Assembly (NCBI GenBank): GCA_018882885.1
Contig: VERG01000004.1
Coordinates: forward strand, 1-64,000
Length of the DNA: 64,000 nucleotides
Direction of reading: 5' to 3'
Source: Candidatus Nanopelagicaceae bacterium
GTDB lineage: Bacteria > Actinomycetota > Actinomycetes > Nanopelagicales > Nanopelagicaceae
The notes below the pieces were generated by a model, which was not told where the DNA came from, ran no database searches, and saw nothing but the letters and a program-made list of their open reading frames with translations. Positions 17,729 through 39,981 of this stretch are shown piece after piece. Positions within the stretch are counted from its first letter, which is position 1, and every line of letters starts with the position of its first letter. Both the position numbers and the translations under genes were made by a program.

Positions 17729-17875
17729 TTTTTTTCTTCCTTCTCCGGGCAGGTACGTGCCCGACGCTCCGTTGGATGAAGTAAGTCCACATCGCTGTGG
17801 ATGCGGCGAAGGCTACGCGTGAGTTGAGCGTGAGGGAAGGGGGGAGCAAAGGTTTTTTAGCCAGCTGGGCCCCTG
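17729..17875 (-). promoter_or_regulatory. Long structured 5' leader of the ABC ATPase gene
   Basis: About 145 bases between the likely transcription start and the ATG. It holds two 6-bp hairpins: CGGGCA/TGCCCG (17746-17763, six-base loop) and TCCACA/TGTGGA (17786-17801, TCGC loop), then the GGAGAAGGA ribosome site. It is one of the longest leaders here. Function unknown; cis-acting RNA control is possible. Confidence 0.45.
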
Positions 17876-19271: not shown

Positions 19272-20273
19272 ATGAAGCGTGTGTTATCTGGGATTCAACC
19301 CACCGCAGAGTCTTTCCATTTAGGTAATTACTTAGGTGCGGTTCGACAATGGGTAGAGTTGCAGAAAACTCATGATGCTTTTTATTGTGTAGTTGATCTG
19401 CATGCCCTTACCGTCGAAACTGAACCCGCGGTTCTGCGCCGCCGCACTTTGGTAGCAGCAGCGCAATTAATTGCACTTGGTTTAGATCCGGATAAGTGCA
19501 CTTTATTCATTCAATCCCATGTACCAGAGCACAATCAATTAGGTTGGGTTTTAGAGTGCCTTGCTGGTTTTGGTGAAGCTAGCCGCATGACACAGTTCAA
19601 AGATAAATCTCAAAAGAGCGGCGCCGATCGCACCGTCGTCGGTTTATTTACCTACCCAATTCTGCAGGCTGCTGACATTATGTTGTACCAAGCTAATTTG
19701 GTTCCCGTTGGCGAAGATCAGAGACAGCACATTGAATTAACCCGTGACCTGGGCCAGCGCTTCAACTCTCGTTACGGTCAAACCTTTGTAATTCCAGAGG
19801 CCTACATTTTGAAGAGTGCGGCAAAGATTAATGATCTCCAGGATCCAACCGCCAAAATGAGTAAATCCGCCGCCTCGAATGCTGGTGTAATAGATATTTT
19901 GGATGCAGCTGACATTAATGTAAAAAAGATTAAAAGCGCGGTAACCGATACCGGCAAAGAGATTGTTTTTGATGAGAAAAACAAGCCTGGAATCTCCAAT
20001 TTATTGAGTATTCACTCTGCGCTTAGTGGAAACTCTATAAAAGATCTAGAAAATCAATTTGCAGGAAAAGGTTATGGCGATTTCAAATCTGCGGTCGCCG
20101 AGGTAGTGACAGATTTCTTCGCCCCAGTAAGACAAAAAACCCAAGAGCTCTTGGCGGATGAAGCGGCATTACTTCAACTTCTCGCGGTAGGTAGTCAAAA
20201 AGCTAGAGATGTTGCCGCAAAAACTTTGGCGCAGACCTACTCTGCCCTTGGTCTTGTGCCGCCGAAACTTTAA
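19272..20273 (+). CDS. trpS: Tryptophanyl-tRNA synthetase
   Basis: A class I aminoacyl-tRNA synthetase of 333 aa. The HIGH-equivalent lies in [18 protein letters not shown], followed by [10 protein letters not shown] and the tryptophan pocket with [15 protein letters not shown]. The KMSKS loop is intact (AKMSKSAAS). Length is typical of bacterial TrpS. The start overlaps no neighbour; a weak GAGAAG lies 10 bases upstream. It is not linked to trp biosynthesis genes here. Confidence 0.95.
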
Positions 20274-20283
20274 TACTTACCAA

Positions 20284-21255
20284 ATGAAACTGCGGGCTCT
20301 ACTTTTAATCTTTACGCTGATATTTTCTGCGGTTTCGCCAGCCAGAGCCGAGAATCCTTCTGCAAAAGTTGCGGTGGCATACGACATTGGTTTTCTAGGA
20401 GATAACTCCTTCAATGATGCGGTAAATGAAGCGCTGGTAACCGCCAAGAAAAAGTACAACTTGGTAGAGCCATTTATCCGCGAAGTGCCAACCAATGGCT
20501 CGGCAGTGGATCGCTTGTCGCGACTTAGATTTCTCGCTCAAAATGGATACAACCTAGTTATTGCAGTCGGCTCAGGGTATCGAGAGACAGTACGTCGAGT
20601 CTCAATGGAGTATCCCGATATTCAATTCGCCTTGATAAATGACAAAGCTATTGGACAGATGAATGTCTCAAACATCTATTTTCGAGAGGATCATGGCGCT
20701 TACCTATCTGGTGTAATTGCAGCAACCTTCTCAAAAAAGAAAAGTATCGGATTTATAGGCAGCGATCCGGATTTATTTGTCAGCTTTAGCGCTGGTGCCC
20801 GCGCAATTTCTAAAACCATAAGGGTCGTCAACATTGCTTATCCCGACTCCTTAGCGGCGCTCAAATCTGGATTAGGAAAAATCGATGTTGGATACTCGAC
20901 TTGGGATGGCGATGCAACTGTTCTCACCACGGTACTTGATGGATACGCCAAAAAAGTTAAGTTGATTGTAGAAAGACCTGATCAGTACTTTTCTGAGCTC
21001 AACTCGGCACAGAGTGTTATTTTGGCATCCATTAATAAGAATCTGACTCGCCCGATTGATCAACTAGTGGGTGCAGCTTTAGCGCAGCGTTCAATAATTG
21101 ATGTGGTTGATGAAAAAGAGGGAATCTATGGTCGCGAGTACAGTTTAAGAAATCGCGGGGTTTCCTTCACAATGAATGCACCAATCAGTAGCACACAACG
21201 TGCTCGGATAAATCTTGAGATAAAAAAGTTCTTAGCTAATCCAAAATCAAAATAG
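20284..21255 (+). CDS. BMP-family substrate-binding protein (first copy)
   Basis: A 323-aa extracytoplasmic binding protein of the basic-membrane-protein (PnrA/BmpA/Med) family, whose known members bind nucleosides. Signal peptide MKLRALLLIFTLIFSAVSPARA, then VAVAYDIGFLGDNSFNDAV, LVIAVGSGYRE, YPDIQFALINDK and KKSIGFIGSDPD, the usual family landmarks. There is no lipobox cysteine. ATG 20284 is chosen because the longer reading would start inside trpS. It stands apart from the transporter genes and its 3' end overlaps ribokinase by nine bases, tail to tail. Confidence 0.85.
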   Translation: MKLRALLLIFTLIFSAVSPARAENPSAKVAVAYDIGFLGDNSFNDAVNEALVTAKKKYNLVEPFIREVPTNGSAVDRLSRLRFLAQNGYNLVIAVGSGYRETVRRVSMEYPDIQFALINDKAIGQMNVSNIYFREDHGAYLSGVIAATFSKKKSIGFIGSDPDLFVSFSAGARAISKTIRVVNIAYPDSLAALKSGLGKIDVGYSTWDGDATVLTTVLDGYAKKVKLIVERPDQYFSELNSAQSVILASINKNLTRPIDQLVGAALAQRSIIDVVDEKEGIYGREYSLRNRGVSFTMNAPISSTQRARINLEIKKFLANPKSK

Positions 21256-22185
21256 ATTTTTAAGCAGTTGGGCTGCTTCTGCCTTGCTGGGATATGAAGA
21301 TTGAGTCCCTTTTCTAGTGACGCTGTCAGAGGCACACGCACATCCCAGCCGCACAGATTCTTCAATCTCAAATCCAGATGCTATTCCAAATGCAAAGGCA
21401 CCGACAAAGGAATCTCCCGCCCCGGTTGAATCAACCGCTTTAACCTTGGGAGCTAAAACGTAAATTATCTTTCCATTGCTATCTGTGTAAGCCGCGCCTT
21501 TCTCTCCCAGAGTGACCACGAAGTTACAACCCAGAAGTTTGGCTACTTTTGATATTTCAACCTCATTATCTGGTTGTTTTCCATCTGGATTTAGACCAGC
21601 AAACTCGGTTTCATTTGGAATTATCCAGTCACATAAAGAAATTAGCTCAGGTGTCAATGGTGCAAAAGGGGCTGGATTCAAAATTGTTGTGATCCCCATG
21701 CTGCGGGCCTTTCGAAATGCTGCGCTGGTCACCGCTTGAGGAATTTCCAGCTGTCCAATAACTACCTGCGCATTTGGTAGTGCAGAGATTGCATCTTCGG
21801 CCTGCTGCGGAGTCATCGCATTGTTGGCGCCGGGAACACAGATAATCCGATTAGTTCCGCTGGGCTCGACCCAAATCGGGGCAACTCCACTGGCTCCGGA
21901 AACTCGGGCTATAAAGGTGGTGTCGATACCCTGATCATGAAAATTCTTTATTGTGGTGTCGCCAAAAACATCATCTCCCAAGGTGTTTACCATCGAAACC
22001 TTGGCGCCTAAACGGCTAGCCATAACCGCCTGGTTAGCTCCCTTGCCGCCAAATCCAAGGGAAAATGAGTCTCCAATCACAGTTTCCCCGGCGCTGGGAA
22101 TCTTTTGAGAGTAGGCGATCATGTCAATCATCGTGCTGCCTACAACCACAATCTCTGGCGGGGATTTCTCGTTAAAAACCGGCAT
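21247..22185 (-). CDS. rbsK: Ribokinase (PfkB family)
   Basis: Phosphorylates D-ribose to ribose-5-phosphate, the entry for ribose freed by nucleoside hydrolases nearby. PfkB motifs: GGKGANQAVMASRLG near the N-terminus and DSTGAGDSFVGAFAFG with the catalytic aspartate near the C-terminus. Also seen is the ribokinase-type NPAPFAPL and NETEFAGL. About 312 aa from ATG 22185; a longer reading to 22266 adds a poorly conserved, promoter-overlapping extension, and GTG 22191 is possible. Divergent from the LacI regulator. Confidence 0.9.
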   Translation of the reverse strand: MPVFNEKSPPEIVVVGSTMIDMIAYSQKIPSAGETVIGDSFSLGFGGKGANQAVMASRLGAKVSMVNTLGDDVFGDTTIKNFHDQGIDTTFIARVSGASGVAPIWVEPSGTNRIICVPGANNAMTPQQAEDAISALPNAQVVIGQLEIPQAVTSAAFRKARSMGITTILNPAPFAPLTPELISLCDWIIPNETEFAGLNPDGKQPDNEVEISKVAKLLGCNFVVTLGEKGAAYTDSNGKIIYVLAPKVKAVDSTGAGDSFVGAFAFGIASGFEIEESVRLGCACASDSVTRKGTQSSYPSKAEAAQLLKNLF

Positions 22186-22237
22186 GGACACCTGACTTCT
22201 CGGAAGGGTGGGTTCTAGACGGGACGATACTCCAAGC

Positions 22238-22248
22238 GATAAGTTATC
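22238..22248. repeat. 11-bp palindrome GATAAGTTATC in the rbsK-lacI spacer
   Basis: A perfect inverted repeat (GATAA, central G, TTATC) directly beside the LacI-type operator. It may be a second operator or part of the rbsK promoter. Confidence 0.35.
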
Positions 22249-22249
22249 T

Positions 22250-22261
22250 GCAATCGTTTTT
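22250..22261 (+). promoter_or_regulatory. Candidate LacI/PurR-like operator, site 1
   Basis: GCAATCGTTTTT matches 11 of 12 positions of the PurR-type pattern GCAAnCGnTTnC. It lies between divergent rbsK and the LacI regulator, a classic autoregulation position. Related sites are at 29879 and 34491. Confidence 0.5.
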
Positions 22262-22304
22262 AGCAATTTGTTAAAGATGACTTACTAGCTTTTGGGGAGC
22301 AGAA

Positions 22305-23357
22305 ATGTCCAATGCGACAATTTCAGATGTAGCCAAGAAAGTTGGCGTATCTGAATCAACTGTCTCCCGATACTTAAGCGGATTTAAGGTTCGAAACTCC
22401 GAATCAATTAAAAAAGCAATTAAGGATTTAAATTACCGACCCAACATCATGGCCCGAAACCTAAAGTCCGGTAAGACCGGCATGGTGGCGGTCATAGTTC
22501 CTGACATCTCCAACCCATTTTTTGCCTCCATTGTTCGCGGAGCCGAAGTTGCTGCCGGTGATGATTACATGTTGCAGCTGATTTCAACTAATGATGATCC
22601 AGATAAAGAAGAGGCCGCTATTCGCAGATTGAATGGTCGTGTTGATGGATTGATTTACGTTCCGGCAAAAGAAGACTCCCAAGCAATAACAGAGTTTGAA
22701 GATTATGCATTTCCCGTAGTGTTTGTAGATAGAGTAATTAGCAACCTGCGGAGATTTGATTCTGTCTTGGCTGATAATCAAACTGGTGCATCACTTGCTA
22801 CCAAACACTTGATCGAGCATGGTCATGCTGCAATTGCACATATTGCCGGCCCTTCCGCATCTACTCCGGGCAAAGGAAGAGCTGAGGGTTATCTGGCAGC
22901 ATTGAAAAAATCCAAGATTGAAAGAAATAATGATTACCTTGTTGAGTCAGATTTCACTGTACTAGGTGGTTATCAAGCCATGATGGGTTTGTTGGCTCTT
23001 AAGAAGCGCCCCTCTGCGGTATTTGTGGGCAATAACCTCATGACTATCGGGGCTCTGAAAGCCCTAAAAGAATCAAAGGTAAATGTGCCAGATGAAATGG
23101 CGGTCATCGGCTTTGATGATCATGAACTATCAGATTTGGTTAACCCTCCTCTAACGGTCATCTCTCGAGATGCCCACTTGCAGGGCGCGTTGGCGATGTC
23201 AACGTTGCTAGAGCGAATAAGAGATGGTTACCAATTTCCCCCTAAGCAACTCAAGGTTGATTCCAATCTTGTTATCCGTCAGTCCTGTGGCTCGACATGT
23301 CTCTACAGGAAAACGGATTCAGATAAAAAGATCTTGAGTTCTTCGACAAGCAGTTAA
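22305..23357 (+). CDS. LacI-family transcriptional regulator
   Basis: A 350-aa protein. The N-terminal helix-turn-helix with hinge reads ATISDVAKKVGVSESTVSRYLSG at residues 3-25, split here as recognition helix STVSRY and the hinge NIMARNLKSGKTG. The periplasmic-binding-like sensor (60-330) has VIVPDISNPFFASIVRGAE, DGLIYVPA and AVIGFDDHELSDLVNPPLT. Sensors of this class bind sugars or nucleoside-derived ligands. Context (rbsK, BMP proteins, nucleoside transporter) suggests ribose or a nucleoside as effector. Good ribosome site GGGGAG. It is probably co-transcribed with the binding protein that follows. Confidence 0.92.
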   Translation: MSNATISDVAKKVGVSESTVSRYLSGFKVRNSESIKKAIKDLNYRPNIMARNLKSGKTGMVAVIVPDISNPFFASIVRGAEVAAGDDYMLQLISTNDDPDKEEAAIRRLNGRVDGLIYVPAKEDSQAITEFEDYAFPVVFVDRVISNLRRFDSVLADNQTGASLATKHLIEHGHAAIAHIAGPSASTPGKGRAEGYLAALKKSKIERNNDYLVESDFTVLGGYQAMMGLLALKKRPSAVFVGNNLMTIGALKALKESKVNVPDEMAVIGFDDHELSDLVNPPLTVISRDAHLQGALAMSTLLERIRDGYQFPPKQLKVDSNLVIRQSCGSTCLYRKTDSDKKILSSSTSS

Positions 23358-23382: not shown

Positions 23383-24423
23383 ATGCAGAAGAAAACCCTT
23401 CGCAAACTCGGCGCATCACTAATTGCTGGTGCCCTAGTTGCAACAGGTCTTATCGCAGCAGCTCCAGCTCAAGCAGCTACCAAGAAGACAATCGGTATTG
23501 CTTACAGCTTGGGTGGCCGCGATGTGCCAGGCTTTAACCAGCTTGCCTACATTGGCGTTAAGCCATTGCTTGATAAGGATAAATCCCTCAAGCTAATCGA
23601 GTCTCAGGACAGCCCAACCGCTACCGATGATCAGCGTGCAGAGCGTCTTCGCCTTATGGCAAAGCGCGGCGCTAATCCAATCGTTGTAGTTGGTTTCACC
23701 TATGCAACCGCCCTCGGCAAAGTTGCAAAGGAGTTTCCAAAGGTTCAATGGGGCATCGTTGATGACTCATCTGTTACAGCACCTAACGTACAAAGTATCG
23801 TCTTCAAGGAAGAAGAAGGCTCATACTTGGTAGGTCTAGCTGCTGCTATGACAACAAAGAGTGGTCGTATTGGATTTATTGGTGGCGTTAACACACCACT
23901 AATCGCTAAGTTCGAAGCTGGCTTTATTGCTGGTGCAAAGGCGATCAATCCAAAGATCAAGATTCAATCAACTTACATCTCCAACTTCCCAGACTTCTCA
24001 GGATTTAACGATCCTGCAAAGGGATATGAGGCTGCTAAGGGTATGTACCAGAACGGCGCAGATGTTGTTTATGCAGCAGCTGGCGGAACCGGAACCGGTA
24101 TGCACAAGGCTGCTTCTGAACTTGGCAAGTGGTCTATTGGTGTAGATGCTGATGAAGCAACCTACCCAGCCCACAAGGATTACAAGGCGACAATCCTTAC
24201 CTCAATGCTAAAGCGCGTTGATTTGGGAACTCGTGCCTTTGTTGCTGATGCTCTTGCTGGCAAGAAGACCGCAGGTGTAAAGACCTGGGGTTACAAGCAG
24301 GGTGGCGTTGGCTACACAACAACTGGTGGTTACCTAAGTAGCGTAACTAGCGTAATCAACACCTATGCCAAGAAGATCTCATCTGGAGCTGTAAAGGTTC
24401 CAACAGATCCAAAGCAGGCGTAA
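23383..24423 (+). CDS. BMP-family substrate-binding protein of the nucleoside ABC transporter
   Basis: A 346-aa extracytoplasmic protein with Sec signal peptide MQKKTLRKLGASLIAG and onward to APAQA. The mature part shows KTIGIAYSLGGRDVPGFNQ, NPIVVVGFTYA, VQWGIVDDSS, EEGSYLVGLAAAMTTKSGRIGFI and ADVVYAAAGGTGTG, typical of the nucleoside-binding BMP/PnrA family. No cysteine follows the signal peptide, so it is not an evident lipoprotein. Strong ribosome site AAGGAG. A terminator-like hairpin after the gene probably lets it be made in excess over the membrane parts. Confidence 0.9.
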   Translation: MQKKTLRKLGASLIAGALVATGLIAAAPAQAATKKTIGIAYSLGGRDVPGFNQLAYIGVKPLLDKDKSLKLIESQDSPTATDDQRAERLRLMAKRGANPIVVVGFTYATALGKVAKEFPKVQWGIVDDSSVTAPNVQSIVFKEEEGSYLVGLAAAMTTKSGRIGFIGGVNTPLIAKFEAGFIAGAKAINPKIKIQSTYISNFPDFSGFNDPAKGYEAAKGMYQNGADVVYAAAGGTGTGMHKAASELGKWSIGVDADEATYPAHKDYKATILTSMLKRVDLGTRAFVADALAGKKTAGVKTWGYKQGGVGYTTTGGYLSSVTSVINTYAKKISSGAVKVPTDPKQA

Positions 24424-24492: not shown

Positions 24493-26007
24493 TTGTCAAA
24501 TGTCCTTGAGGTAGTTGGGATTGAAAAACGATATCCCGGTGTTGTGGCAAATAAGGATGTTTCCATTCAAATTGAAGCAGGAACTATTCACGCCATCATC
24601 GGCGAAAATGGTGCCGGTAAATCAACTTTGATGAAGACCCTTTACGGCTTAATCAAGCCAGATGCTGGGCAGATAAAGGTTTTCGGCAGTGAGGTAAATC
24701 TAAAATCCCCACAGGATGCGATAGCACTTGGTATCGGAATGGTGCACCAACATTTCAAGTTGGCTGACAACGCAACAGTTTTAGAAAATGTAATTTTGGG
24801 TAGCGAGCCAACCCGTTTTGGCTTTGTAGTTAAATTTGACGAGGCGCGAAAAAAGTTAGTTGAAATAGCTGAAAACTATGGTTTGGATATTGATCCAGAT
24901 GAGCCGCTCTCCAATCTTGGGGTAGGCGAGAGGCAACGTGTAGAGATTGCCAAGGTGTTATTCCGGGGCGCGAAAATATTAATTTTGGATGAACCAACCG
25001 CAGTTCTGGTGCCTCAAGAGGTTGATGAGTTATTTGCCAACCTTCGAGAGCTCGTCAAAAAAGGTTTGACAGTAATTTTCATCTCGCACAAATTGGATGA
25101 GGTTTTATCTATCGCAGATGACATAACCATCATGCGTCAAGGCACAACAGTTGCAACCAGAAAGCCAAATAAAACCAACAAAAAAGAATTAGCCGAGTTG
25201 ATGGTGGGCGGCGAATTGCCAAAACCAAAAGCAGGCGAGTTAAAGGTAAGCCCTGAGAGCATATTGAGTATTAAATCCGCCTCATACTTCCGAGCTGATG
25301 GCCGTCAGATTCTTGATGATGTGAATCTAGAGCTACATGGTGGTGAAATCATTGGTTTGGCTGGAGTTGAAGGTAATGGCCAAAGTGAGTTAATCGAATT
25401 GATTATGGGGTTAATTCAGCCGGCTACAGGTTCAGTTGAAGTACTTGGCTTAAATGCCGCCACAACATTAACTAGAGATATTCGAAATGCTGGCGTTGCC
25501 TACATCCCACAGGATCGACAGAGAGATGGTCTATTAATGACCGCTCCACTTTGGGAAAATCGCATTTTAGGTCACCAATTTGCTGAGCCCATGGCAAAAA
25601 GTATTTGGGTAAATAAAGGCGCCGCCATCGCAGATTCAAAGAGAGTTGTGAGTGAGTTTGATGTTCGCACTCCCGGTATCAATGTCTTGGCTAGTGCACT
25701 TTCTGGTGGAAATCAGCAGAAATTTATTGTGGGCCGAGAGTTAACTGGTGATCCAAAATTAATAGTTGCGGCACAACCAACCCGTGGCGTAGATGTTGGA
25801 GCACAGGCCATTATCTGGGAGCATCTAATGCAGGCCCGTTCCAAAGGTGCCGGAATTCTCTTAATTTCTGCAGATCTAGAGGAGCTGTTCTCACTTTCAG
25901 ATCGCATTGCGGTTATCTATAGCGGAAAGATTGTTTCAATTTTGAACCCCACAAAAACTACCCCCGAGGATCTTGGTCTAGCTATGACAGGAGCACAGAG
26001 CGCATGA
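24493..26007 (+). CDS. Nucleoside ABC transporter ATPase (double domain)
   Basis: A 504-aa protein with two fused nucleotide-binding domains, as in Bacillus NupO/YufO. Domain 1 (1-240): GENGAGKST, LGVGERQR, LILDEPTAVL. Domain 2 (255-500): degenerate Walker A GVEGNGQSE, LSGGNQQK, VAAQPTRGVDVG. The second site is probably not hydrolytic, as in RbsA-type proteins. TTG start at 24493, preceded by AAGGGGA. Its end overlaps the permease start by ATGA. It energises uptake through the two permeases that follow. Confidence 0.92.
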   Translation: MSNVLEVVGIEKRYPGVVANKDVSIQIEAGTIHAIIGENGAGKSTLMKTLYGLIKPDAGQIKVFGSEVNLKSPQDAIALGIGMVHQHFKLADNATVLENVILGSEPTRFGFVVKFDEARKKLVEIAENYGLDIDPDEPLSNLGVGERQRVEIAKVLFRGAKILILDEPTAVLVPQEVDELFANLRELVKKGLTVIFISHKLDEVLSIADDITIMRQGTTVATRKPNKTNKKELAELMVGGELPKPKAGELKVSPESILSIKSASYFRADGRQILDDVNLELHGGEIIGLAGVEGNGQSELIELIMGLIQPATGSVEVLGLNAATTLTRDIRNAGVAYIPQDRQRDGLLMTAPLWENRILGHQFAEPMAKSIWVNKGAAIADSKRVVSEFDVRTPGINVLASALSGGNQQKFIVGRELTGDPKLIVAAQPTRGVDVGAQAIIWEHLMQARSKGAGILLISADLEELFSLSDRIAVIYSGKIVSILNPTKTTPEDLGLAMTGAQSA

Positions 26008-27110
26008 CAAAAAGCCGGCTTTTTTGGGGGATTGTCGCGCCAACTGCAGCGATCCTAAACTCCTTATTGTTTGTATACATCATCTTAAAGCTACGCGGTG
26101 TAGAACCAATAGAGATGTTCAAACTGATGATCTCTTATGGCTTTGATCCACGTAACTTGGTATCAGAGATTAATCAGACCGTCGCTTATTACATGGCGGG
26201 AGTAGCTGCGGCAATTGGTTTTAAGATGTTGTTATTTAACATCGGTATCGATGGCCAATACCGCATGGGCGCATTTTTTGGCGCTGTCGTAGGGGCTGCA
26301 GTGAATCTGCCTCCTGTCCTGCATGTCTTACTAATTATCTTGGTTGCAATGTTGGCGGGTGGTGTATGGGCGGCTATCGCTGGATATTTAAAGGTTAAGC
26401 GCGGAGTAAATGAAGTTATTTCAAACATTATGTTGAACTTCATAGCAGCTGCGATCATCGCCTTTTTATTGAGCCCTAATCTCCTAGGTTCTCTTCCAGA
26501 AGGCTCACAAAATCTGCAGACTAAACCAATTCCTGCCAGCGGACAGATGCCAACCATAAAAGCCTTCGAAGGTGAGATTTATACATTCTTCTTCATCGCA
26601 ATTGTTGTTGGTGTTGGCTATTGGATAATGCTCAACAAAACCATCTTCGGATTCAATTTGAGAGCTACTGGACTTTCATTCCGCGCAGCTCGCGCTAGCG
26701 GAGTTAACGCGCCAGGAATGATTTTTATTACCACGGTGCTTTCCGGAGCGATTGCAGGTCTAGTTGGAATTGGAACTTTGTTATCAGATACCCATTCCTA
26801 CAGCATGGCATTTCCATCCGGATACGCCTTCACCGGTTTGGCACTTGCTCTTTTGGGTAGAAATCATCCTGTCGGAATATTTTTTGCCGCATTCCTTTGG
26901 TCCTTCCTCGAGCGTTCCGCTCCGGTTCTGGAGTTTGAAGGTGTGCCGCCAGAGATTGTAATTGTTATGCAGGGAACCATTGTGCTTTCCATTGTTATCG
27001 CTTACGAGGTTGTTGCGCGAATAAATCTACGTCAACAACAAAGAGCGGTTGGTTCGGCAAATACTGAGAATCAAAATTCTCAAGCAGAGCAAGTTAAGGA
27101 GACTAAGTAA
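26004..27110 (+). CDS. Nucleoside ABC transporter permease 1
   Basis: A 368-aa polytopic protein of the branched-chain/BPD_transp_2 type, like Bacillus NupP/YufP. It has about eight to ten hydrophobic segments. Landmarks are FNIGIDGQYRMGAFFGA, KVKRGVNEVISNIMLNFIA, LRATGLSFRAARASGVN and FTGLALALLGRNHPVG. The NEVISNIMLNF region is the usual ATPase-coupling loop. Overlaps both neighbours (4 bases and 1 base), so stoichiometric translation with the ATPase and second permease is likely. Confidence 0.92.
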   Translation: MTKSRLFWGIVAPTAAILNSLLFVYIILKLRGVEPIEMFKLMISYGFDPRNLVSEINQTVAYYMAGVAAAIGFKMLLFNIGIDGQYRMGAFFGAVVGAAVNLPPVLHVLLIILVAMLAGGVWAAIAGYLKVKRGVNEVISNIMLNFIAAAIIAFLLSPNLLGSLPEGSQNLQTKPIPASGQMPTIKAFEGEIYTFFFIAIVVGVGYWIMLNKTIFGFNLRATGLSFRAARASGVNAPGMIFITTVLSGAIAGLVGIGTLLSDTHSYSMAFPSGYAFTGLALALLGRNHPVGIFFAAFLWSFLERSAPVLEFEGVPPEIVIVMQGTIVLSIVIAYEVVARINLRQQQRAVGSANTENQNSQAEQVKETK

Positions 27111-28360
27111 TGTCAACTAACACAAATTCTGCTAAGAAATCCGGATCAAAAACTAAATCATTTTTTAAATCTCCGGCTCGAGTGACGCTTTTGATTGCGG
27201 GAATCTTCTTAATCATCTCCTTAGTTGAGGTAATTACCGGCGCCACAGATATTTCATCACCTGGAACCTCCGGTGCGACTCTGCGATTTGCCATTCCGCT
27301 TTTAATGGCTGGTTTAGGTGGATTGTGGGCGGAGCGGGCTGGTGTCATCAACATTGGTCTAGAGGGAATGATGATTGTTGGAACCTGGACCGCAGCTTGG
27401 TTTGGTTACCTTCATGGTCCAGTCATTGGAATCTTGGCCGCTGCGTTTTTTGGATTGGCATCAGGATTTTTCCACGCCATAATGACTGTAAAAATTGGAA
27501 TTGATCAAGCGGTATCGGGTTTGGCAATTAACCTAATTGCAGCAGGCGCAGCTCGCTATCTATCTGGAATCTTTTTCCCACCTGTGGGTGGCGATAGAAC
27601 TGTTTCACCTCCTGTTGATACCTTGCCATCGTTTTCTATACCGATTATCGCCCCGATACTAAAAAGTATCGATGAAAAAGAAATTTTCTTTGTCTCCAAC
27701 ATCGCAGGCTTGTTGTACGGCGTAACAAAAGAGTTGTCGGTTGTGACTGTTGGATTCTTACTTCTCGTTCCTTTGACCTCATGGATTCTCTGGCGTAGCA
27801 AGTTTGGTTTACGAATGCGCTTTTCAGGTGAAAATCCCATGGCCGCGGAGTCCTTGGGAATCAATGTTTATCGCACCCGCTACATCGCAATTTCCGTCTC
27901 GGGAATGTTGGCCTCCTTAGGAGGTGCTTATTTGGCGCTAGTTGCCTCCTCGGTTTACCGCGAGGGTCAGACCGCTGGCCGTGGCTTCATTGGCTTAGCA
28001 ACGGTGATCTTTGGAAACTGGAAGCCAAGCGGGGTATTTGCCGGTTCAATACTCTTTGGATTCACTGATGCAATCCGAGTAAGGCAGGCAGAGTCGGTCA
28101 CGGCTTTGATTCTCGCCGCGGGATTCGTGGCATTGCTGCTTTCAATTTTCTACACCTCATCTAGAAGATGGAAACCAGCCGCCTCTTATTTCACTATCGG
28201 GTTGGTTGCGCTTTGGATCAATCAAAGCGTGGAGACAATCCCTCAAGAGTTCGTCACCGTATTTCCAAATGTTGCAACGCTATTGGTGCTTACCTTCTTG
28301 GCTCAGAGGTTAACTCCTCCAGCTATGGCGGGTATGCCTTATAGGCGTGGCTCTGAATAA
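27110..28360 (+). CDS. Nucleoside ABC transporter permease 2
   Basis: A 416-aa polytopic protein like Bacillus NupQ/YufQ. Landmarks: LWAERAGVINIGLEGMMIVG, VKIGIDQAVSGLAINLIA, LRMRFSGENPMAAESLGINV and GRGFIGLATVIFGNWKPSG. It is longer than most relatives (about 310-330 aa) because of a lysine-rich, cytosolic N-terminus and extra C-terminal hydrophobic segments (370-405). It forms the channel with permease 1. The gene starts on the last base of the upstream stop. Confidence 0.92.
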   Translation: MSTNTNSAKKSGSKTKSFFKSPARVTLLIAGIFLIISLVEVITGATDISSPGTSGATLRFAIPLLMAGLGGLWAERAGVINIGLEGMMIVGTWTAAWFGYLHGPVIGILAAAFFGLASGFFHAIMTVKIGIDQAVSGLAINLIAAGAARYLSGIFFPPVGGDRTVSPPVDTLPSFSIPIIAPILKSIDEKEIFFVSNIAGLLYGVTKELSVVTVGFLLLVPLTSWILWRSKFGLRMRFSGENPMAAESLGINVYRTRYIAISVSGMLASLGGAYLALVASSVYREGQTAGRGFIGLATVIFGNWKPSGVFAGSILFGFTDAIRVRQAESVTALILAAGFVALLLSIFYTSSRRWKPAASYFTIGLVALWINQSVETIPQEFVTVFPNVATLLVLTFLAQRLTPPAMAGMPYRRGSE

Positions 28361-28374
28361 ATCAAAAGGAAAAG

Positions 28375-29364
28375 ATGAGCGTTAATTGGAGCTCTCCAGT
28401 TCTTAAAAGCCTGGAGCCGGTATTAAGTAATGCCAAGTTGGTACATATCAATAAAGAGAAAGTAATTGATGTCGCAAACTGGATGGCGTATGAAGAGTTT
28501 CCCAAACCAGATGGTTCAATGCTTTTTGATTTTGGCAACAACCCCGATACCTTGATGGATTTCACCATGGTTGTAAACACCATGAACTTTGCCTTCACAG
28601 ATTTTCAATCTGGGGTCAAGTTTGAAACTGATTACCAGGGTAAGAGATGGTGCGATAGTGAAGCGATGTTGGCTTGTATGCATCGTGCTGTTAACTCTGG
28701 AACTCCGTTATTTTCAGGCGAGTTTTTAGCTGAGTTAACCGCAGAGAAGTTCAATTCAATCTTCTCCGGCACCATTGAGATGCCGATGGTTAAGGAACGA
28801 GTTGAAATCTTCAATGAGGTTGGGCGGGTTCTAGTCGAAAAGTACCAAGGTAGTTATCACAATTTTGTCCGCTCCTGCTCACCACGCCTATATGACAACG
28901 GAAATGGGCTCTTGGAGCGTTTGGTTGTTGAGTTCCCTAGGTTTAATGATGTTAGCGACTATCACGGGCATAAGATCCAGATTTTTAAATTGGCACAACT
29001 TGGAATCTGGGGGATGCATCTAGCACTCTCGCCACGCGGGCATTGGAAGTTAGAGGATGCCGCAGAGCTAACCGCCTTTGCCGATTACATCGTGCCGGTC
29101 GGTCTTAGAGTGATGGGAATTTTTGAATATGCACCAGAGTTAGAAAATCAGATTAACTCATTGCAGGAAGTTAAACGAGATAGTGATGCAGAGATTGAAT
29201 TACGGGCTAGCTCAATCTATTGCATAGCACTTCTGACTGATGAGATTAATAAGAGAAGGCCAAATATGACCCCACTTCTAATGCCACAGGTTGACTTTAG
29301 ATTTTGGAAAACCTACCACGCCACTCACTGGCCACATCACCTAACCAAAACAGTGATGTACTAG
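28375..29364 (+). CDS. DUF2419 queuosine 5'-phosphate N-glycosylase-like protein (Qng1 family)
   Basis: A 329-aa protein recognised as the DUF2419 family, which in eukaryotes (C9orf64) and some bacteria splits queuosine 5'-phosphate to the free base queuine for tRNA modification. Seen: NTMNFAFTDFQSGVKFE, FVRSCSPRLYDNG, VVEFPRFNDVS and the C-terminal MPQVDFRFWKTYH, conserved blocks as I recall them. It sits 14 bases after the nucleoside permease with its own AAAGGA ribosome site, so it is in the transporter operon. This suggests that the transported nucleosides include queuosine, or that the enzyme acts on related nucleotides. Stop TAG shares the palindrome CTAG with the convergent gene. Confidence 0.78.
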   Translation: MSVNWSSPVLKSLEPVLSNAKLVHINKEKVIDVANWMAYEEFPKPDGSMLFDFGNNPDTLMDFTMVVNTMNFAFTDFQSGVKFETDYQGKRWCDSEAMLACMHRAVNSGTPLFSGEFLAELTAEKFNSIFSGTIEMPMVKERVEIFNEVGRVLVEKYQGSYHNFVRSCSPRLYDNGNGLLERLVVEFPRFNDVSDYHGHKIQIFKLAQLGIWGMHLALSPRGHWKLEDAAELTAFADYIVPVGLRVMGIFEYAPELENQINSLQEVKRDSDAEIELRASSIYCIALLTDEINKRRPNMTPLLMPQVDFRFWKTYHATHWPHHLTKTVMY

Positions 29365-29822
29365 TTTTGCGAATCTAATTCAGTTTTCCAGCTTCTGAGA
29401 ATTGGCAACGCCTTCTCAAAGCGATCTACTACCTGTCCAACATCTTCAACGCAGCCGCGTACAAATAGATTGATTCCCTTTCCATCAATCATGTTGCGAT
29501 CTCGAATTACTCTTGTGTCAGTCACCAGGCCAACAATGCCTTTTTTGGATTTATCGGTCCGCATAGCAGCCCAGAAGATGCCAATCTCTGTCGCGGTTCC
29601 GTCATCAACCATCGGCCCATCTAGCAAGGCCAGCACCGCGTTGGCGGCCATTACCTCTTTAGAATCGACTTCAAAGATAAATTTCGCGGTTACCGGATCT
29701 GGTAATGGAATTTCATGTGGCACAAAAACCTCAAAGCCTTCACTACGTAGCTGCGCAGCACATTGATCTATAAAACTTCGCTCATATGGAGTGAATAAAG
29801 GTCCAGCAAAATAAATCCGCAT
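29361..29822 (-). CDS. Nucleoside 2-deoxyribosyltransferase-like protein
   Basis: A 153-aa Rossmann-like protein of the nucleoside 2-deoxyribosyltransferase family. Landmarks: MRIYFAGPLFTPYER at the N-terminus, VLALLDGPMVDDGTATEIG with the acidic active-site residues (the glutamate of TEIG is the expected nucleophile), and NLFVRGCVED near the end. The family moves deoxyribose between bases or hydrolyses 2'-deoxynucleosides or their phosphates. Ribosome site AAGGGAG about 9 bases upstream. Neighbours all serve nucleoside salvage, which supports the call. Confidence 0.82.
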   Translation of the reverse strand: MRIYFAGPLFTPYERSFIDQCAAQLRSEGFEVFVPHEIPLPDPVTAKFIFEVDSKEVMAANAVLALLDGPMVDDGTATEIGIFWAAMRTDKSKKGIVGLVTDTRVIRDRNMIDGKGINLFVRGCVEDVGQVVDRFEKALPILRSWKTELDSQN

Positions 29823-29911: not shown

Positions 29912-31114
29912 TTGTTGCTAACTTCGTATAGGGAAGTAATTAGGCATAGCCACGCTTTGCCCACCTTTGGGTTTGGCATGGTGGGTCGCATTCCAGTGGC
30001 CATGAATACCGTGGCGCTAGTTTTCTTAATCTCATCTGTCAGAGATTCATTTTTGCTCGCTGGTATTGCTTCCTCCTTTTACACCTTGTGTGGCGCAATA
30101 GTTGGCCCTCGCATTGGCAGATTAGCTGATCGATATGGAACCCGGGTGGTTTTGCTCCCGATAACTTTTGTAAATGCGTTATCAATAGTTGGGGTCGTCT
30201 TTTTCAGCTCGAGATCTGTTGCCTTGTTGTTGCTCTTTTCCGCACTTTCAGGTGCAACTATGCCCAGTTTTGGAAGTTACACAAGAACGAGATGGAGCCG
30301 CACAATAAAAGATAAGAGAGAGTTAGGTGTAGCGCTCTCTCTGGAGTCAGTTCTTGATGAAACCGCTTTCGTTGTTGGTCCTGCTTTAGCGGGATTTCTC
30401 TTTGCGCTGTATGGATCTGATTCACCACTTTTGGCTGGAATATTTTTTACAATAATTGGTGGAGCTGGACTTGCGATCACCTCATTTGATCATGCCAATA
30501 AGGATGGGGAGAGACAACAGCTAGGAGGACTTTTCAAGATTCAGTATGTAAAGAGCCTCTTAGCTTCCCTAATAGCACTAGGCATGTTGTTTGGATCTAA
30601 TTACGTTGTAATCCTTGCGGTGGCAAAAGAGAGTGGAAGAGCCGCCGATGGTGGCCTTTGGGTTGGTTTATATCCAATAGGTAGCACCATTGCTGGCCTG
30701 GTTTATGGTTTGATTCATTGGAAATCACGTAACGCTACGCGATACACACTGGCATTAGCCTTTATGACCTTTTCAACTAGCGCAATACTCTTCTTTCAAA
30801 ACATAGAGACGATTGTCTTTTTTATTATTCTCTCTGGAATAGGAATCGCTCCTGCTCTAATAGCAGCAAACGCTCATTTAAAGGAGCTAGTTCCCCTTAA
30901 CCGTTTAAATGAGGCTTTTTCACTTCTAGGTGCATCGCTTTCCATCGGAATTACCCTAGGCAGTTCGCTAAGTGGGATGTTGGTAGACCGATTTGGGGGT
31001 TGGAATGGGTTTTACTTCATGAGCGCTGCAACGCTTTTGGCCACACTTCTATCCTTAATTGGCGTAAAGGCTGGAAAGCATGAACCTCTAGGTGAAACAA
31101 TAAATCATGGCTGA
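29912..31114 (+). CDS. MFS transporter, probably for nucleosides or their products
   Basis: A 400-aa major-facilitator protein with about twelve hydrophobic segments. The loop 2-3 motif is GRLADRYGTRVVL and its repeat in the second half is GMLVDRFGGWNG. No substrate signature is recognised. Context (operator site 2 upstream, nucleoside hydrolase overlapping downstream by 8 bases) points to nucleosides, bases or pentoses. The start is TTG; TTG 29915 is slightly better spaced from GGGGAG. Confidence 0.8.
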   Translation: MLLTSYREVIRHSHALPTFGFGMVGRIPVAMNTVALVFLISSVRDSFLLAGIASSFYTLCGAIVGPRIGRLADRYGTRVVLLPITFVNALSIVGVVFFSSRSVALLLLFSALSGATMPSFGSYTRTRWSRTIKDKRELGVALSLESVLDETAFVVGPALAGFLFALYGSDSPLLAGIFFTIIGGAGLAITSFDHANKDGERQQLGGLFKIQYVKSLLASLIALGMLFGSNYVVILAVAKESGRAADGGLWVGLYPIGSTIAGLVYGLIHWKSRNATRYTLALAFMTFSTSAILFFQNIETIVFFIILSGIGIAPALIAANAHLKELVPLNRLNEAFSLLGASLSIGITLGSSLSGMLVDRFGGWNGFYFMSAATLLATLLSLIGVKAGKHEPLGETINHG

Positions 31115-32042
31115 GAAGATAATTTTCGATACCGATCCGGGGATTGATGATGCACTGGCTTTACTTCTTCTCGCTGCTGCACCCGAATTAGATTTAATGG
31201 CGATTACCGTTACTCATGGCAATACCTCTCAAGATAAATGTCTATCCAACGCCTTGAAGTTGGTGGAGTTGCTAGGTATCGAACAGGTACCGGTAGCTCG
31301 GGGTGCGCAAGAACCACTAGTAAAAGAGTTATCGGTAGCCGAGGAGACTCATGGCGACGGAGGATTGGGTTATGCGGTACTGCCGGAAGCTAAGTTGAAA
31401 CCGGTCAATGAATCAGCTCATGATTTAATCATTAGATTAGTTAATGAAAACCCTAATCAAATTACCTTACTTTGCGTTGGACCCATGACAAATATTGCTC
31501 TTGCCCTGTTGAAAAAACCAGAAATTGCCAAGAAGGTAAAACGGATTGTTGCAATGGGTGGTTCTATTCATTACCCAGGAAACTCAACGCCGCAATCGGA
31601 GTACAACGTGTTTTGTGATCCGGAAAGCTATGAAATTGTTGTAAATGCAGGAATAGATTTCACTTTAGTGCCCCTTGATGTCACTTATCAATGTCTTCTT
31701 ACCAACCAACATATAGACCAAATAACGCATGCCCGTCCTGAGATAAAGAGTTTTATAAAGGAATCAACCCGTTTTTACATAGAGTTTCACGCTGAATATC
31801 AAGGAATTCAAGGTTGCGCTATTAATGATCCACTAGCAGCTGCGATCTTGATAGATCCAACACTGGTTGAAAATCGCGATTACTTTATCTCCGTAGATTT
31901 ATCTGGTGGTCCTTCTAAAGCCAAGACCATTGCCGATCACTATGGCGCACTAAAGAAAGCCCCCAATGCTCGAGTGTCCATGGCGGTTGATGTAGATCGC
32001 TTCATGAAACTTTTCATCGAACGTATGAATAGGTTGAACTGA
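31107..32042 (+). CDS. Nucleoside hydrolase 1 (IUNH family)
   Basis: A 311-aa Ca2+-dependent N-ribohydrolase of the inosine-uridine-preferring family. The metal-binding N-terminus is FDTDPGIDDALAL. Next come LLCVGPMTNIALAL and VAMGGSIHYPGNSTPQSEYNVFCDPE, whose asparagine and glutamate bind ribose, and NDPLAAAILIDP with the catalytic aspartate region. It frees base and ribose, which rbsK can then phosphorylate. The gene overlaps the MFS gene at its start and the uridine phosphorylase gene by one base at its end. Confidence 0.92.
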   Translation: MAEKIIFDTDPGIDDALALLLLAAAPELDLMAITVTHGNTSQDKCLSNALKLVELLGIEQVPVARGAQEPLVKELSVAEETHGDGGLGYAVLPEAKLKPVNESAHDLIIRLVNENPNQITLLCVGPMTNIALALLKKPEIAKKVKRIVAMGGSIHYPGNSTPQSEYNVFCDPESYEIVVNAGIDFTLVPLDVTYQCLLTNQHIDQITHARPEIKSFIKESTRFYIEFHAEYQGIQGCAINDPLAAAILIDPTLVENRDYFISVDLSGGPSKAKTIADHYGALKKAPNARVSMAVDVDRFMKLFIERMNRLN

Positions 32043-32773
32043 TGAAGCAGTATCACACTCAAACCGAGTTAGGAGATGTTGGCAGATATGTATTGATGCC
32101 AGGGGATCCCGGTCGAGTTCCGCTAATTGCTGCCAGGTTAGAAAATGCGGTTCACATCGCAACAAATCGTGAGTATGTCACTTACACCGGATGGCTAGAG
32201 GGAGTAAAAGTTTCTGTTACATCCACTGGTATTGGATGTCCTTCATCCGCGATTGCGGTGGAGGAGCTTTATCGCAGTGGTGCAGACACTTTTATTAGAG
32301 TCGGAACCTCAGGCAGTTTGCAACCAGGCACTAAATCAAATGACTTAGCGATAGTGACTGGAGCTATCCGGCACGAAGGAACCTCTTCACACTACATGCC
32401 AATCGAGTTTCCTGCGGTATGCGATTTAGAGATTGTGCAGGCTATGAGAAGTGCAGTACAGAGGCTGGGAGTCAGATATCAAGTTGGGATATCTCACTCC
32501 AAGGACTCTTTTTATGGAGAGGTAGAACCGGAGCGCTCTGCAAACAGCGCGCAGCTAAAAGATTTATGGAGAGCCTGGCAGATAGGTGGTGCAATCTGCT
32601 CGGAGATGGAGATTTCAACTATCTGTATTGTTTCTAGCATTTTACGTGCCAGAGCCGGAGGAATAATGGCGATGCATGGCGAAGGAGATTTTGGGTCACT
32701 AGATGGTTTAATTATTGCGGCCGTAGAGTCGGTAAGAGAGTTAATAAAATTGGATAAAGAAAAAGCGGAATAA
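32042..32773 (+). CDS. Uridine phosphorylase-family protein A
   Basis: A 243-aa nucleoside phosphorylase (PNP/UDP family 1). Phosphate site: MPGDPGR and FIRVGTSG. Base-site region: KDSFYGEVEPERS. Sugar site: CSEMEIS with the conserved Glu-Met-Glu. Splits uridine or related nucleosides with phosphate into base and (deoxy)ribose-1-phosphate. It is a close paralogue of the next gene, but the base-contact segment has Glu-Val where the partner has Gln-His, so substrate preference may differ. ATG overlaps the preceding TGA. Confidence 0.88.
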   Translation: MKQYHTQTELGDVGRYVLMPGDPGRVPLIAARLENAVHIATNREYVTYTGWLEGVKVSVTSTGIGCPSSAIAVEELYRSGADTFIRVGTSGSLQPGTKSNDLAIVTGAIRHEGTSSHYMPIEFPAVCDLEIVQAMRSAVQRLGVRYQVGISHSKDSFYGEVEPERSANSAQLKDLWRAWQIGGAICSEMEISTICIVSSILRARAGGIMAMHGEGDFGSLDGLIIAAVESVRELIKLDKEKAE

Positions 32774-32787
32774 GAAAAAGGAAAAAT

Positions 32788-33543
32788 ATGGAAAGCAACG
32801 GAAAGCAGTATCACATCCAACTTGAGCGTGGGGATGTTGGAAAGTATGTATTGCTGCCCGGAGATCCAGGGCGTTGCGAGCCGATTTCAAGACTTTTTGA
32901 TAACCCAAGACATGTTGCCACCAACCGCGAATACGTCACCTACACCGGCACTTTAGATGGTGTTCCAGTATCTGTTACTTCGACTGGTATTGGCTGCCCG
33001 TCAGCGGCGATCGCTCTTGAAGAGTTAGTCAGATGTGGCGCTGACACCTTTATCCGTGTTGGAACCTCAGGTCATATTCAAAAAGATATTCGCTCGGGCG
33101 AGTTAGCAATTATCAGCGCCGCAATTCGAGATGAAGGAACCTCGCGCCACTACATGCCCATAGAGTTTCCAGCAATTGCAGATATTGATGTTGTCTTAGC
33201 GTTACAAGCTGCGGCCAAGAAAACTGGAGCCATTCATCGCACTGGTATCACTCAGTCCAAAGACTCCTTTTATGGACAACATGAACCAGAGCGCATGGGA
33301 GTTGCCAAAGATTTACTAGAACGCTGGAAGGCATGGGAGATTGGTGGCGCTTTGTGCTCTGAAATGGAGGCCTCTGCGTTATTTGTTATCGCATCGATGC
33401 TGCGGGTCAGAGCCGGAGGGATAATGATGGTGCATGGCAAAGAGCCAATGCCACCGCTTGATATCTTGCTCGAAACCGCAGTACAAGGTTTGCGCGAACT
33501 AATCGCGGCTGACAAAGCAACCGGGCGCTCAGTTACTGTGTAA
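32788..33543 (+). CDS. Uridine phosphorylase-family protein B
   Basis: A 251-aa paralogue of the preceding protein, with LPGDPGRCEP, NREYVTYTGTLDGVPV, FIRVGTSGHIQ, KDSFYGQHEPERMG and CSEMEAS. The KDSFYGQHEPE form is the one I associate with uridine phosphorylases of Gram-positive bacteria, so this copy is the better candidate for true uridine phosphorylase. Ribosome site AAAGGAAAAA. The 3' end overlaps nucleoside hydrolase 2 tail to tail by 11 bases. Confidence 0.9.
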   Translation: MESNGKQYHIQLERGDVGKYVLLPGDPGRCEPISRLFDNPRHVATNREYVTYTGTLDGVPVSVTSTGIGCPSAAIALEELVRCGADTFIRVGTSGHIQKDIRSGELAIISAAIRDEGTSRHYMPIEFPAIADIDVVLALQAAAKKTGAIHRTGITQSKDSFYGQHEPERMGVAKDLLERWKAWEIGGALCSEMEASALFVIASMLRVRAGGIMMVHGKEPMPPLDILLETAVQGLRELIAADKATGRSVTV

Positions 33544-34474
33544 TTGCAGCGGCTTTGATGGCATCCAACATTAGACTCCAAAACTTGTCGAAATCCAATT
33601 CCAACGCGACATTGCAGTTGGCCGCTTCACCGAGACGATTGTAGATATCAACCACAGTGGCACCGCGAGTAAGTGGTCCACTCAACTCAACTTGAACATT
33701 TACAAACCGAGATTTCACTACACTGCGATCGATTAAGAGTGCGATAGCAACTGGATCGTGAAGTGGTGGATCAGGCATCTCAAAAACATCATCATAGGTT
33801 TTTGCAAAGAATTTGAGCAGCCCAATTATGGTTTTACTTAATTCGCTCTGCATCTCTTCTAGTTTGGCAAATATCTGTTTAGTTACTAGGGCTTGATGGG
33901 TTACATCTAGTCCACACATAGTTAGCGGCAAACCACTTCTCAAAACAACATCTGCGGCTTCAGGATCCATCCAAATGTTGAATTCGGCATACGGGGTACG
34001 GTTTCCTCTGCTGGCGCTGCCGCCCATAAAAACAATCTCAGAAACCTGATTTTTCAATTGCGGATACATCTTTAAAAACAACGCAATGTTAGTTAGGGGA
34101 CCAGTTGCGACCAGAGTTACTGGCTCGGGGTGTTCGGAAACTAGCTTTGCAATCAAATCCACGGCATGCAACTCTGATAATTCAATTTTCGGTTGTGGAA
34201 GTTCTGCGCCATCCAAAGCGGATTCACCATGAATATCATGCGCCTCTTCAATCGCGCCTAGAATTGCTTTACCCGCACCTTCAGCAATGGGAACATTTAT
34301 TCCCGCCAGAGTTGCAACACGGCGTGCATTCAATGTCACCTTTGCAATTCCACCATTACCAGAGACTGTAGTTACTCCGAGCAGCTTTAGAGATGGGTTG
34401 TGAGCCGCCAGGATCATGGCTAAAGCGTCATCATGGCCTGGGTCGCAGTCCAAAATTAAAGGTATGGGTTTCAT
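33533..34474 (-). CDS. Nucleoside hydrolase 2 (IUNH family)
   Basis: A 313-aa protein homologous to the hydrolase at 31.1 kb but clearly diverged: LDCDPGHDDALAMIL, VATGPLTNIALFL, VFMGGSASRGNRTPYAEFNIWMDPE and LHDPVAIALLID. The N-terminal DCDPGHDD (against DTDPGIDD) resembles the pyrimidine-preferring RihA/RihB branch. ATG 34474 is chosen over a longer start at 34504 because TACGCT lies six bases upstream. Divergent from deoC; operator site 3 sits between them. Confidence 0.92.
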   Translation of the reverse strand: MKPIPLILDCDPGHDDALAMILAAHNPSLKLLGVTTVSGNGGIAKVTLNARRVATLAGINVPIAEGAGKAILGAIEEAHDIHGESALDGAELPQPKIELSELHAVDLIAKLVSEHPEPVTLVATGPLTNIALFLKMYPQLKNQVSEIVFMGGSASRGNRTPYAEFNIWMDPEAADVVLRSGLPLTMCGLDVTHQALVTKQIFAKLEEMQSELSKTIIGLLKFFAKTYDDVFEMPDPPLHDPVAIALLIDRSVVKSRFVNVQVELSGPLTRGATVVDIYNRLGEAANCNVALELDFDKFWSLMLDAIKAAAITQ

Positions 34475-34480
34475 GTCACA

Positions 34481-34486
34481 AGCGTA
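34481..34486 (-). promoter_or_regulatory. -10 box, leaderless nucleoside hydrolase 2
   Basis: TACGCT on the minus strand, six bases before ATG 34474. Confidence 0.55.
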
Positions 34487-34490
34487 GGGG

Positions 34491-34502
34491 TAAAGCGATT
34501 GC
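34491..34502 (-). promoter_or_regulatory. Candidate LacI/PurR-like operator, site 3
   Basis: Minus strand GCAATCGCTTTA matches 11 of 12 positions of GCAAnCGnTTnC. Its centre is about 22 bases upstream of the predicted hydrolase start point, where a repressor would block polymerase, and about 60 upstream of deoC. Confidence 0.5.
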
Positions 34503-34544
34503 ATATTCTAGTAAAACGCCCTTCTCAATCTGAATTGGGCTAGA

Positions 34545-38964: not shown

Positions 38965-39981
38965 TTACGAAACTACTTTAAAAGCGGCCGCTTTAGCCTT
39001 TGTATTCATTTCCATTAAATCTTCAATACTCCAGTTATGTATGTTGCCCATCAACTCATACTCTCGGCTCAGATTCGTATTGCTCATCAATCTATTGTCG
39101 GTATTCAGAGCGATGTTGAAACCTAGATCATGGAGTACCGCTGCTGGATGGCTCTCATAATCTGCAGCTGCACCGGTTTGCAGATTTGAAGTAGGCGCCA
39201 TTTCTAGGTGAATCTGCAGATCTCTTATGATCTTGGCATCATCTGAAAGCTTTGGGGTATCTCCAGATAAATCAATCTCATCAATCAATCTAACGCCATG
39301 CCCAATTCGCTTGGCGCGACAGTTAGATATTGCATCCCTCATGGATTCAAAGGGAGCGGCCTCGCCGGCGTGAATTGTGTAGGGAAAGCCTTGATCATGC
39401 AGCAAATCAAAGGCGGCTCGATGGTTGCTGGCCGGAAACCCTAATTCCGCTCCTGCAATATCAAATCCCACCACGCCCTTATTACGGAATTTCAAGATTG
39501 TTTCCGCTACTTCAAGCGAGCGGTTGGTATGTCGCATTGCGCAGGCGATGAAGTTAGTTTCAATCGACCGATTTAACAATTTTGCTTCTGATATACCTTC
39601 GGAAATCCCCTGTAACGTGGCCTCGATAACTTGTGAAATGGAGAGTCCGCCTTGGGTAAACAACTCCGGCGCTCCACGTACCTCTGCATAAACCACACCA
39701 TCTAGCGCTAAATCAATCACACATTCCCGGGAGACACGAACTAGATTTTCGTAACTTTGCATTACCGCAATTGTGTAATCAAAGTTCTTTAAGTACTTCT
39801 CTAGAGAGCCTTCATTGCAGCTGGCAAAGATTGTTTCCTGCAAAAACTCTGGTTCATAAGTTGGCAATTCCAGATTGATTTGCTTTGCAATCTCGATAAT
39901 GGTTTGGGGTCGCAAGCCACCATCTACATGGTCGTGTAATAGGACCTTTGGTAACTCGGAGATAACTTTTGTTGGTAACAA
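38965..39981 (-). CDS. add: Adenosine deaminase
   Basis: Converts adenosine and deoxyadenosine to inosine forms that phosphorylases or hydrolases can split. A 338-aa zinc amidohydrolase: HDHVDGGLRP (metal His-x-His), TIHAGEAAP (His and catalytic Glu), RIGHGVRLID and LNTDNRLMSNT (zinc aspartate; Asn follows it as in other actinobacterial members). The only reasonable start is TTG 39981. It lies 18 bases downstream of cdd on the same strand. Confidence 0.93.
   Translation of the reverse strand: MLPTKVISELPKVLLHDHVDGGLRPQTIIEIAKQINLELPTYEPEFLQETIFASCNEGSLEKYLKNFDYTIAVMQSYENLVRVSRECVIDLALDGVVYAEVRGAPELFTQGGLSISQVIEATLQGISEGISEAKLLNRSIETNFIACAMRHTNRSLEVAETILKFRNKGVVGFDIAGAELGFPASNHRAAFDLLHDQGFPYTIHAGEAAPFESMRDAISNCRAKRIGHGVRLIDEIDLSGDTPKLSDDAKIIRDLQIHLEMAPTSNLQTGAAADYESHPAAVLHDLGFNIALNTDNRLMSNTNLSREYELMGNIHNWSIEDLMEMNTKAKAAAFKVVS

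Follow-up and report, generated by a model that had tools for sequence, protein, structure and literature searches.

The window, that is, the whole 64,000 nucleotide stretch analyzed here from a contig of a Candidatus Nanopelagicaceae bacterium, contains an importer operon that ends in a gene of the Qng1/DUF2419 family, flanked by a divergent kinase gene on one side and by a series of nucleoside-related genes on the other. The features concerned are the following:

21247-22266, minus strand: PfkB kinase, annotated as ribokinase (PF00294, 218 bits), divergent from the operon
22305-23357, plus strand: LacI-family regulator (PF00356 and Peripla_BP), first gene of the operon
23383-24423, plus strand: BMP/PnrA-type substrate-binding lipoprotein (PF02608), presumed nucleoside binder
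24493-26007, plus strand: ABC ATPase with two ABC domains (PF00005, two stretches)
26004-27110, plus strand: ABC permease 1 (BPD_transp_2, PF02653), overlapping the ATPase and permease 2 genes
27110-28360, plus strand: ABC permease 2 (BPD_transp_2, PF02653), hereafter perm2
28375-29364, plus strand: Qng1/DUF2419-family protein of 329 aa, of a PfkB-linked subfamily (clade A), with K205 and D237
29361-29822, minus strand: PF05014 protein of 153 aa (66 bits), nucleoside 2-deoxyribosyltransferase or nucleotide N-hydrolase-like, overlapping the Qng1 stop by 4 bp
29912-31114, plus strand: MFS transporter (PF07690)
31107-32042, plus strand: nucleoside hydrolase IUNH1 (PF01156), RihA/RihC-like below the cut-offs
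32042-32773 and 32788-33543, plus strand: two tandem nucleoside phosphorylase paralogs (TIGR01718, 245.5 and 276.9, below the cut-off of 280.3)
33533-34504, minus strand: nucleoside hydrolase IUNH2, UriH/RihA-like below the cut-offs

The genes for the LacI regulator, the BMP lipoprotein, the double ATPase, the two permeases and the Qng1-family protein follow each other in this order and in one direction, with 25, 69, -4, -1 and 14 bp between them, and a full BMP-type ABC set (PF02608 lipoprotein, double ATPase, two PF02653 permeases) is thus encoded in one operon. The lipoprotein matches Lbp (7x0r), TmpC (2fqw) and BmpD (6shu) in phmmer searches. The operon shares the BMP lipoprotein, the double ATPase and the two BPD_transp_2 permeases with BMP/PnrA-type nucleoside ABC importers, but differs from the usual representatives in ending with a Qng1 gene. 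The original prediction had placed a DUF2419/Qng1 gene 14 bases after the second permease of a nucleoside-type ABC operon, and this description was confirmed: perm2 ends at 28360, and the Qng1-family frame opens at 28375 with an ATG that has AAGGAAAAG upstream. No riboswitch was found at the operon, and scans for promoters and terminators gave no excess over shuffled sequences. Upstream of the PfkB gene, positions 20209-21255 of the plus strand encode another BMP-like protein, which PF02608 matches in part (96 bits) and which has no importer of its own alongside. Also, an msiK RNA cis-regulatory motif (RF01747, 63.8 bits versus 33) occupies positions 17730-17789 of the minus strand, upstream of the minus-strand gene 16646-17728.

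The product of the last operon gene falls inside DUF2419 by profile search, matching positions 6-285 of the 285 of the Q_salvage profile (PF10343) with 200.6 bits (cut-off 25; E = 5e-59), and it is the sole PF10343 protein of the 1.29 Mb, 99.87% complete genome. The Sphaerobacter and human enzymes, its best relatives of solved structure, were recovered by phmmer with E values of about 1e-37 and 1.5e-31, respectively. Its AlphaFold model (pLDDT 91) has a TM-score of 0.85 to 7u91, 7u07 and 7ulc, with a probability of 1.00 for 7u91, the complex of Qng1 with queuosine-5'-monophosphate (Q-5'-MP). The characterised proteins (Sphaerobacter thermophilus, 7u07/7u91; human QNG1, 7ugk) have the same fold at about 27% identity, and the same catalytic pair, Lys199 and Asp231. 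The closest database copy, with 95% identity, belongs to a Candidatus Nanopelagicales MAG, in agreement with the planktonic actinobacterial host that had been proposed. All copies have an open frame with no internal stops, and no viral or phage carriage of Qng1 was found. A candidate fusion of Qng1 with an extra domain, in frames of 594-683 aa from high-G+C relatives, was rejected, the surplus in the two frames read out (L110 and L111) being antisense of the divergent PfkB gene.

Alignment of the active site, proposed as a check of the original prediction, had a divided outcome. Lys199 and Asp231, the residues mutated in the solved Sphaerobacter entries K199C (7u5a) and D231N (7ulc), correspond to K205 and D237 of the window protein and are invariant in all clade-A sequences, whereas all 23 of these differ at W76, G92-Y93-W94, R200, K/R233 and Q236, positions on which the Sphaerobacter and human enzymes agree. 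The replacements are W76 to T, G92-Y93-W94 to D-[ST]-[ED], R200 to L, K/R233 to I and Q236 to V, with variation confined to the bracketed positions of the triplet, so that the characterised motifs NF[CS]FW, GYW, KRAQ and ADY[KR]xPQ read NFAFT, D[ST][ED], KLAQ and ADYIVPV in clade A. The clade is monophyletic (support 100/100) and sits on a long stem branch. Judging from these sequences, catalysis is probably kept in clade A and the choice of substrate may have shifted with respect to the characterised enzymes; given that the replacements run throughout the clade, queuosine is only a candidate substrate. Another explanation is thereby brought in, to which we assign a lower probability, about one chance in four, namely that the same kinase and nucleotide-glycosidase module acts on the 5'-monophosphate of another modified, possibly purine-like, nucleoside and serves nutrition rather than tRNA modification. 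The pattern of changed surroundings about an unchanged catalytic pair and the long, fully supported stem favor it, but the family and fold are Qng1's own, and the changed residues were identified by alignment. A third PF10343 branch, with NFGSGW and ADNxVPHVL motifs, occurs at 15 loci of other Actinomycetota (L107, L112 and L114-L126), where it often adjoins UvrD-like helicase genes, with no PfkB of the clade-A kind nearby.

Conservation of the arrangement was assessed in related loci and in 201 genomes of the order. Qng1 lies directly downstream of perm2 in 24 of 29 related loci, and perm2 orthologs (54-100% identity) and Qng1 occur, adjacent to each other, in an identical set of 20 of the 201 genomes, all other perm2 paralogs having at most 48% identity. 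On account of this adjacency and of the identical genome sets, the perm2-Qng1 arrangement is far from chance. In genomes lacking Qng1 the same chromosomal site is occupied by another BMP-type importer, frequently accompanied by a PfkB-IUNH pair; the importers of this alternative type (L127-L136) have 43-48% perm2 identity and never occur with Qng1. Since the type of importer differs at a single chromosomal site, Qng1 is part of an exchangeable nucleoside cassette. The PF05014 gene adjoins Qng1 in most Nanopelagicales loci, on either strand and even in those without ABC genes, and beyond IUNH2 the window continues with DeoC and aldehyde dehydrogenase genes (DeoC and the first aldehyde dehydrogenase being named from the sequence). 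The importer lies among hydrolase, phosphorylase and DeoC genes in a locus for nucleoside catabolism, and to call it queuosine-specific would not be justified. Also at this locus, a cytochrome P450 gene (37773-38948, minus strand) lies beside an adenosine deaminase gene (38965-39981, minus strand), and most of the order keeps this pair there, irrespective of the type of importer cassette.

Among the neighbors of Qng1, the PfkB gene shows the deepest conservation. In the ten clade-A loci that lack ABC genes (L018, L021, L022, L024, L030, L108, L109, L110, L111 and L113, from several families including Actinomarina), Qng1 has, without exception, an orthologous PfkB gene as its immediate divergent neighbor, with, where measured, at most about 200 bp between the matched parts. 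In the cassette of the order the orientation of PfkB is the same and the importer operon separates it from Qng1, and PfkB flanks the operon wherever the flank is available. The divergent PfkB in all ABC-less loci indicates that PfkB and Qng1 are the conserved unit and that the importer is an addition; this obligate neighbor distinguishes clade A from the characterised Qng1 enzymes. According to the title of Hung et al. 2023 (cited in PMC11493786), characterised Qng1 acts biologically on Q-5'-MP, and a kinase would consequently be needed if the nucleoside is imported. Going by this reported substrate, cleavage would release ribose-5-phosphate, making a ribokinase needless downstream and a nucleoside kinase necessary upstream. 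The search for a kinase proposed earlier has thus yielded a candidate, and PfkB is predicted to be the nucleoside kinase partner of Qng1. By analogy, this suggests a kinase and nucleotide-glycosidase module comparable to PsuK-PsuG, in which a PfkB kinase and a nucleotide glycosidase also work in series, although the PsuG glycosidase family is unrelated to Qng1 and its substrate is a C-glycoside. The window genome itself holds a PsuG-PfkB pair (L145, PF04227 and PfkB), and so provides a precedent for the two-step design. Our literature search returned no "queuosine kinase", nor any kinase supplying Q-5'-MP to Qng1, while the primary Qng1 papers, which lay outside this search, might already remark on PfkB clustering; an ABC transporter family near bTGT, Qng1 and QueK genes has been listed as a candidate class only (PMC11130926).

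The annotation of PfkB as ribokinase needs to be weighed against this prediction. Its TIGR02152 score of 301.5 is just above the equivalog cut-off of 299.65, and the ribokinase residues are retained. Both facts would suit an ordinary ribokinase combined with an ordinary carbon-feeding nucleoside importer, Qng1 recycling Q-5'-MP from the turnover of the cell's own tRNA and being carried along with the importer genes since what it releases also enters the ribose-phosphate pool. The adjoining IUNH, phosphorylase, DeoC and aldehyde dehydrogenase genes are in line with such an arrangement, as is the PfkB paired with a nucleoside hydrolase at the alternative locus. We nevertheless regard it as unlikely: PfkB adjoins Qng1 even where neither importer nor hydrolase lies alongside, the Qng1-paired PfkBs of loci without ABC genes score under the ribokinase cut-off (273.2 in L108, 279.9 in L109, 284.2 in L030 and 288.8 in L021), and the ribose-5-phosphate yielded by Qng1 itself would leave a ribokinase superfluous. 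Replacement of Asn by Met at ribokinase residue 14 was rejected as a sign of changed PfkB specificity, since human RBKS and the PfkBs linked to hydrolases have Met there too; the E. coli RbsK row in the PfkB comparisons served only as a distant outgroup.

A role in queuosine salvage would call for a means of using the recovered base. The window genome encodes tgt, and QueA, QueG and QueH are absent from it. Among the 201 genomes of the order tgt occurs in 187, QueA in none and Qng1 in 20. With no QueA in the order, any production of queuosine (Q) must depend on an external supply of the finished base or nucleoside; tgt itself, being near universal, is uninformative as a co-occurrence signal. 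The search for tgt and a queuine-type enzyme suggested with the original prediction recovered the gene, but not the type, the GGALDK motif in the TGT of the window genome differing both from GGLAVGE of preQ1 enzymes and from GG[LS][AS]G, published for queuine enzymes (PMC11570991). As each of 35 TGTs sampled from the order carries GGA[LIV][DE]K, irrespective of the presence of Qng1 or QPTR, specificity is not readable from the motif.

Other routes to the same end are known. QPTR/YhhQ (PF02592) together with queuine-type bTGT (Chlamydia type) serves the same purpose, a tgt without QueA needing an outside base, but QPTR imports the free base, whereas the predicted cargo of the window system is a nucleoside, and PF02592 had no match in the window genome. 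QueK, a queuosine hydrolase of the nucleoside-hydrolase family, frees queuine from a nucleoside form as Qng1 does, yet has an unrelated fold and needs no kinase; the two IUNH genes of the window resemble RihA/RihC and UriH/RihA, in both cases below the cut-offs. QPTR, the dedicated importer of queuosine precursors, is present in 23 of the 201 genomes, none of which has Qng1, and in the genus of the window genome the two are perfectly complementary (Qng1 in five genomes, QPTR in the other nine). QPTR lies between an MFS gene and tgt in the sister species G139 and G147, and this spot is empty in the window genome (G000), G049 and G084. In the TGT tree the five Qng1 genomes of the genus form one group (94/92) among QPTR genomes, so that the swap is best counted as one replacement event; the genus-level exclusion was accordingly dropped as a statistic. 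Over the order as a whole, an overlap of zero would arise by chance with a probability of 0.077. The exclusion is suggestive and falls short of proof.

Neither Qng1 nor QPTR was found in 158 of the 201 genomes, though most of them have tgt. In the window genome tgt (L002, contig 31) is located between two MFS genes (MFS_1/MFS_3). A tgt-flanking MFS protein is a possible queuosine-precursor transporter in genomes without QPTR and Qng1. The many genomes with neither gene and the MFS genes around tgt would also be expected if Qng1 were a decaying passenger and queuine entered otherwise, for instance through the MFS protein beside tgt. This we consider highly improbable in view of the intact frames of all Qng1 copies, their invariant catalytic residues and their strict co-occurrence with perm2.

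In the distant outgroup G245, which carries a bare PfkB-Qng1 pair, the roughly 1.49 Mb read of its 2.2 Mb include an operon of queA and a preQ1-type tgt, whose pocket motif is GGLSVGE. By its sequence, G245 probably makes Q from preQ1 with no direct use of free queuine. This weakens a strict story of queuine auxotrophy and strengthens the case for another nucleoside as the substrate, for which the position of the operon in a nucleoside-catabolism locus also speaks. Against it, the lineage of the window has retained tgt in the absence of QueA, and QPTR was lost there where the module was gained. It is accordingly somewhat doubtful, if worth considering, that the PfkB-linked DUF2419 subfamily is a distinct enzyme of new base specificity and, together with a dedicated PfkB nucleoside kinase, makes up an undescribed kinase and nucleotide N-glycosidase pathway for a modified non-queuosine nucleoside in planktonic and related Actinomycetota.

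Import of queuosine, its phosphorylation and its cleavage to queuine constitute the best reading of the module, one that we hold with roughly even confidence. In this pathway, the BMP-type ABC importer would take up nucleosides, including queuosine from decaying tRNA, and the PfkB kinase would convert queuosine to Q-5'-MP. The Qng1-family protein, whose family, fold and catalytic pair are established, would then hydrolyze the N-glycosidic bond to give queuine and ribose-5-phosphate, and the TGT encoded elsewhere in the genome would insert queuine, its presumed substrate, into GUN tRNAs. In the lineage of the window, the PfkB-Qng1-importer module would thereby replace QPTR import of the free precursor. 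This reading is opposed by the replacement of positions common to both solved Qng1 enzymes and the long stem branch, by a PfkB score just over the ribokinase cut-off and the ribokinase-like PfkBs adjoining nucleoside hydrolases at the alternative locus, and by the single-event nature of the genus exclusion, the order-wide value, the number of genomes with neither gene and the queA of G245. The proposal that the cell imports and recycles queuosine is therefore upheld as regards family, catalytic residues, operon, tgt and a candidate kinase, and not as regards the queuosine specificity of importer and substrate; the PfkB partner and the exclusion of QPTR had escaped it. The system is better described as a PfkB kinase and Qng1-type glycosidase module with an added importer and queuosine as a candidate substrate.

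The locus names a concrete candidate kinase and a concrete candidate importer, with 20 genomes available for testing, and singles out a group of Qng1 proteins that may have changed in specificity. If the queuosine reading is true, abundant planktonic actinobacteria would rely on nucleosides leaked by their neighbors for a tRNA modification.
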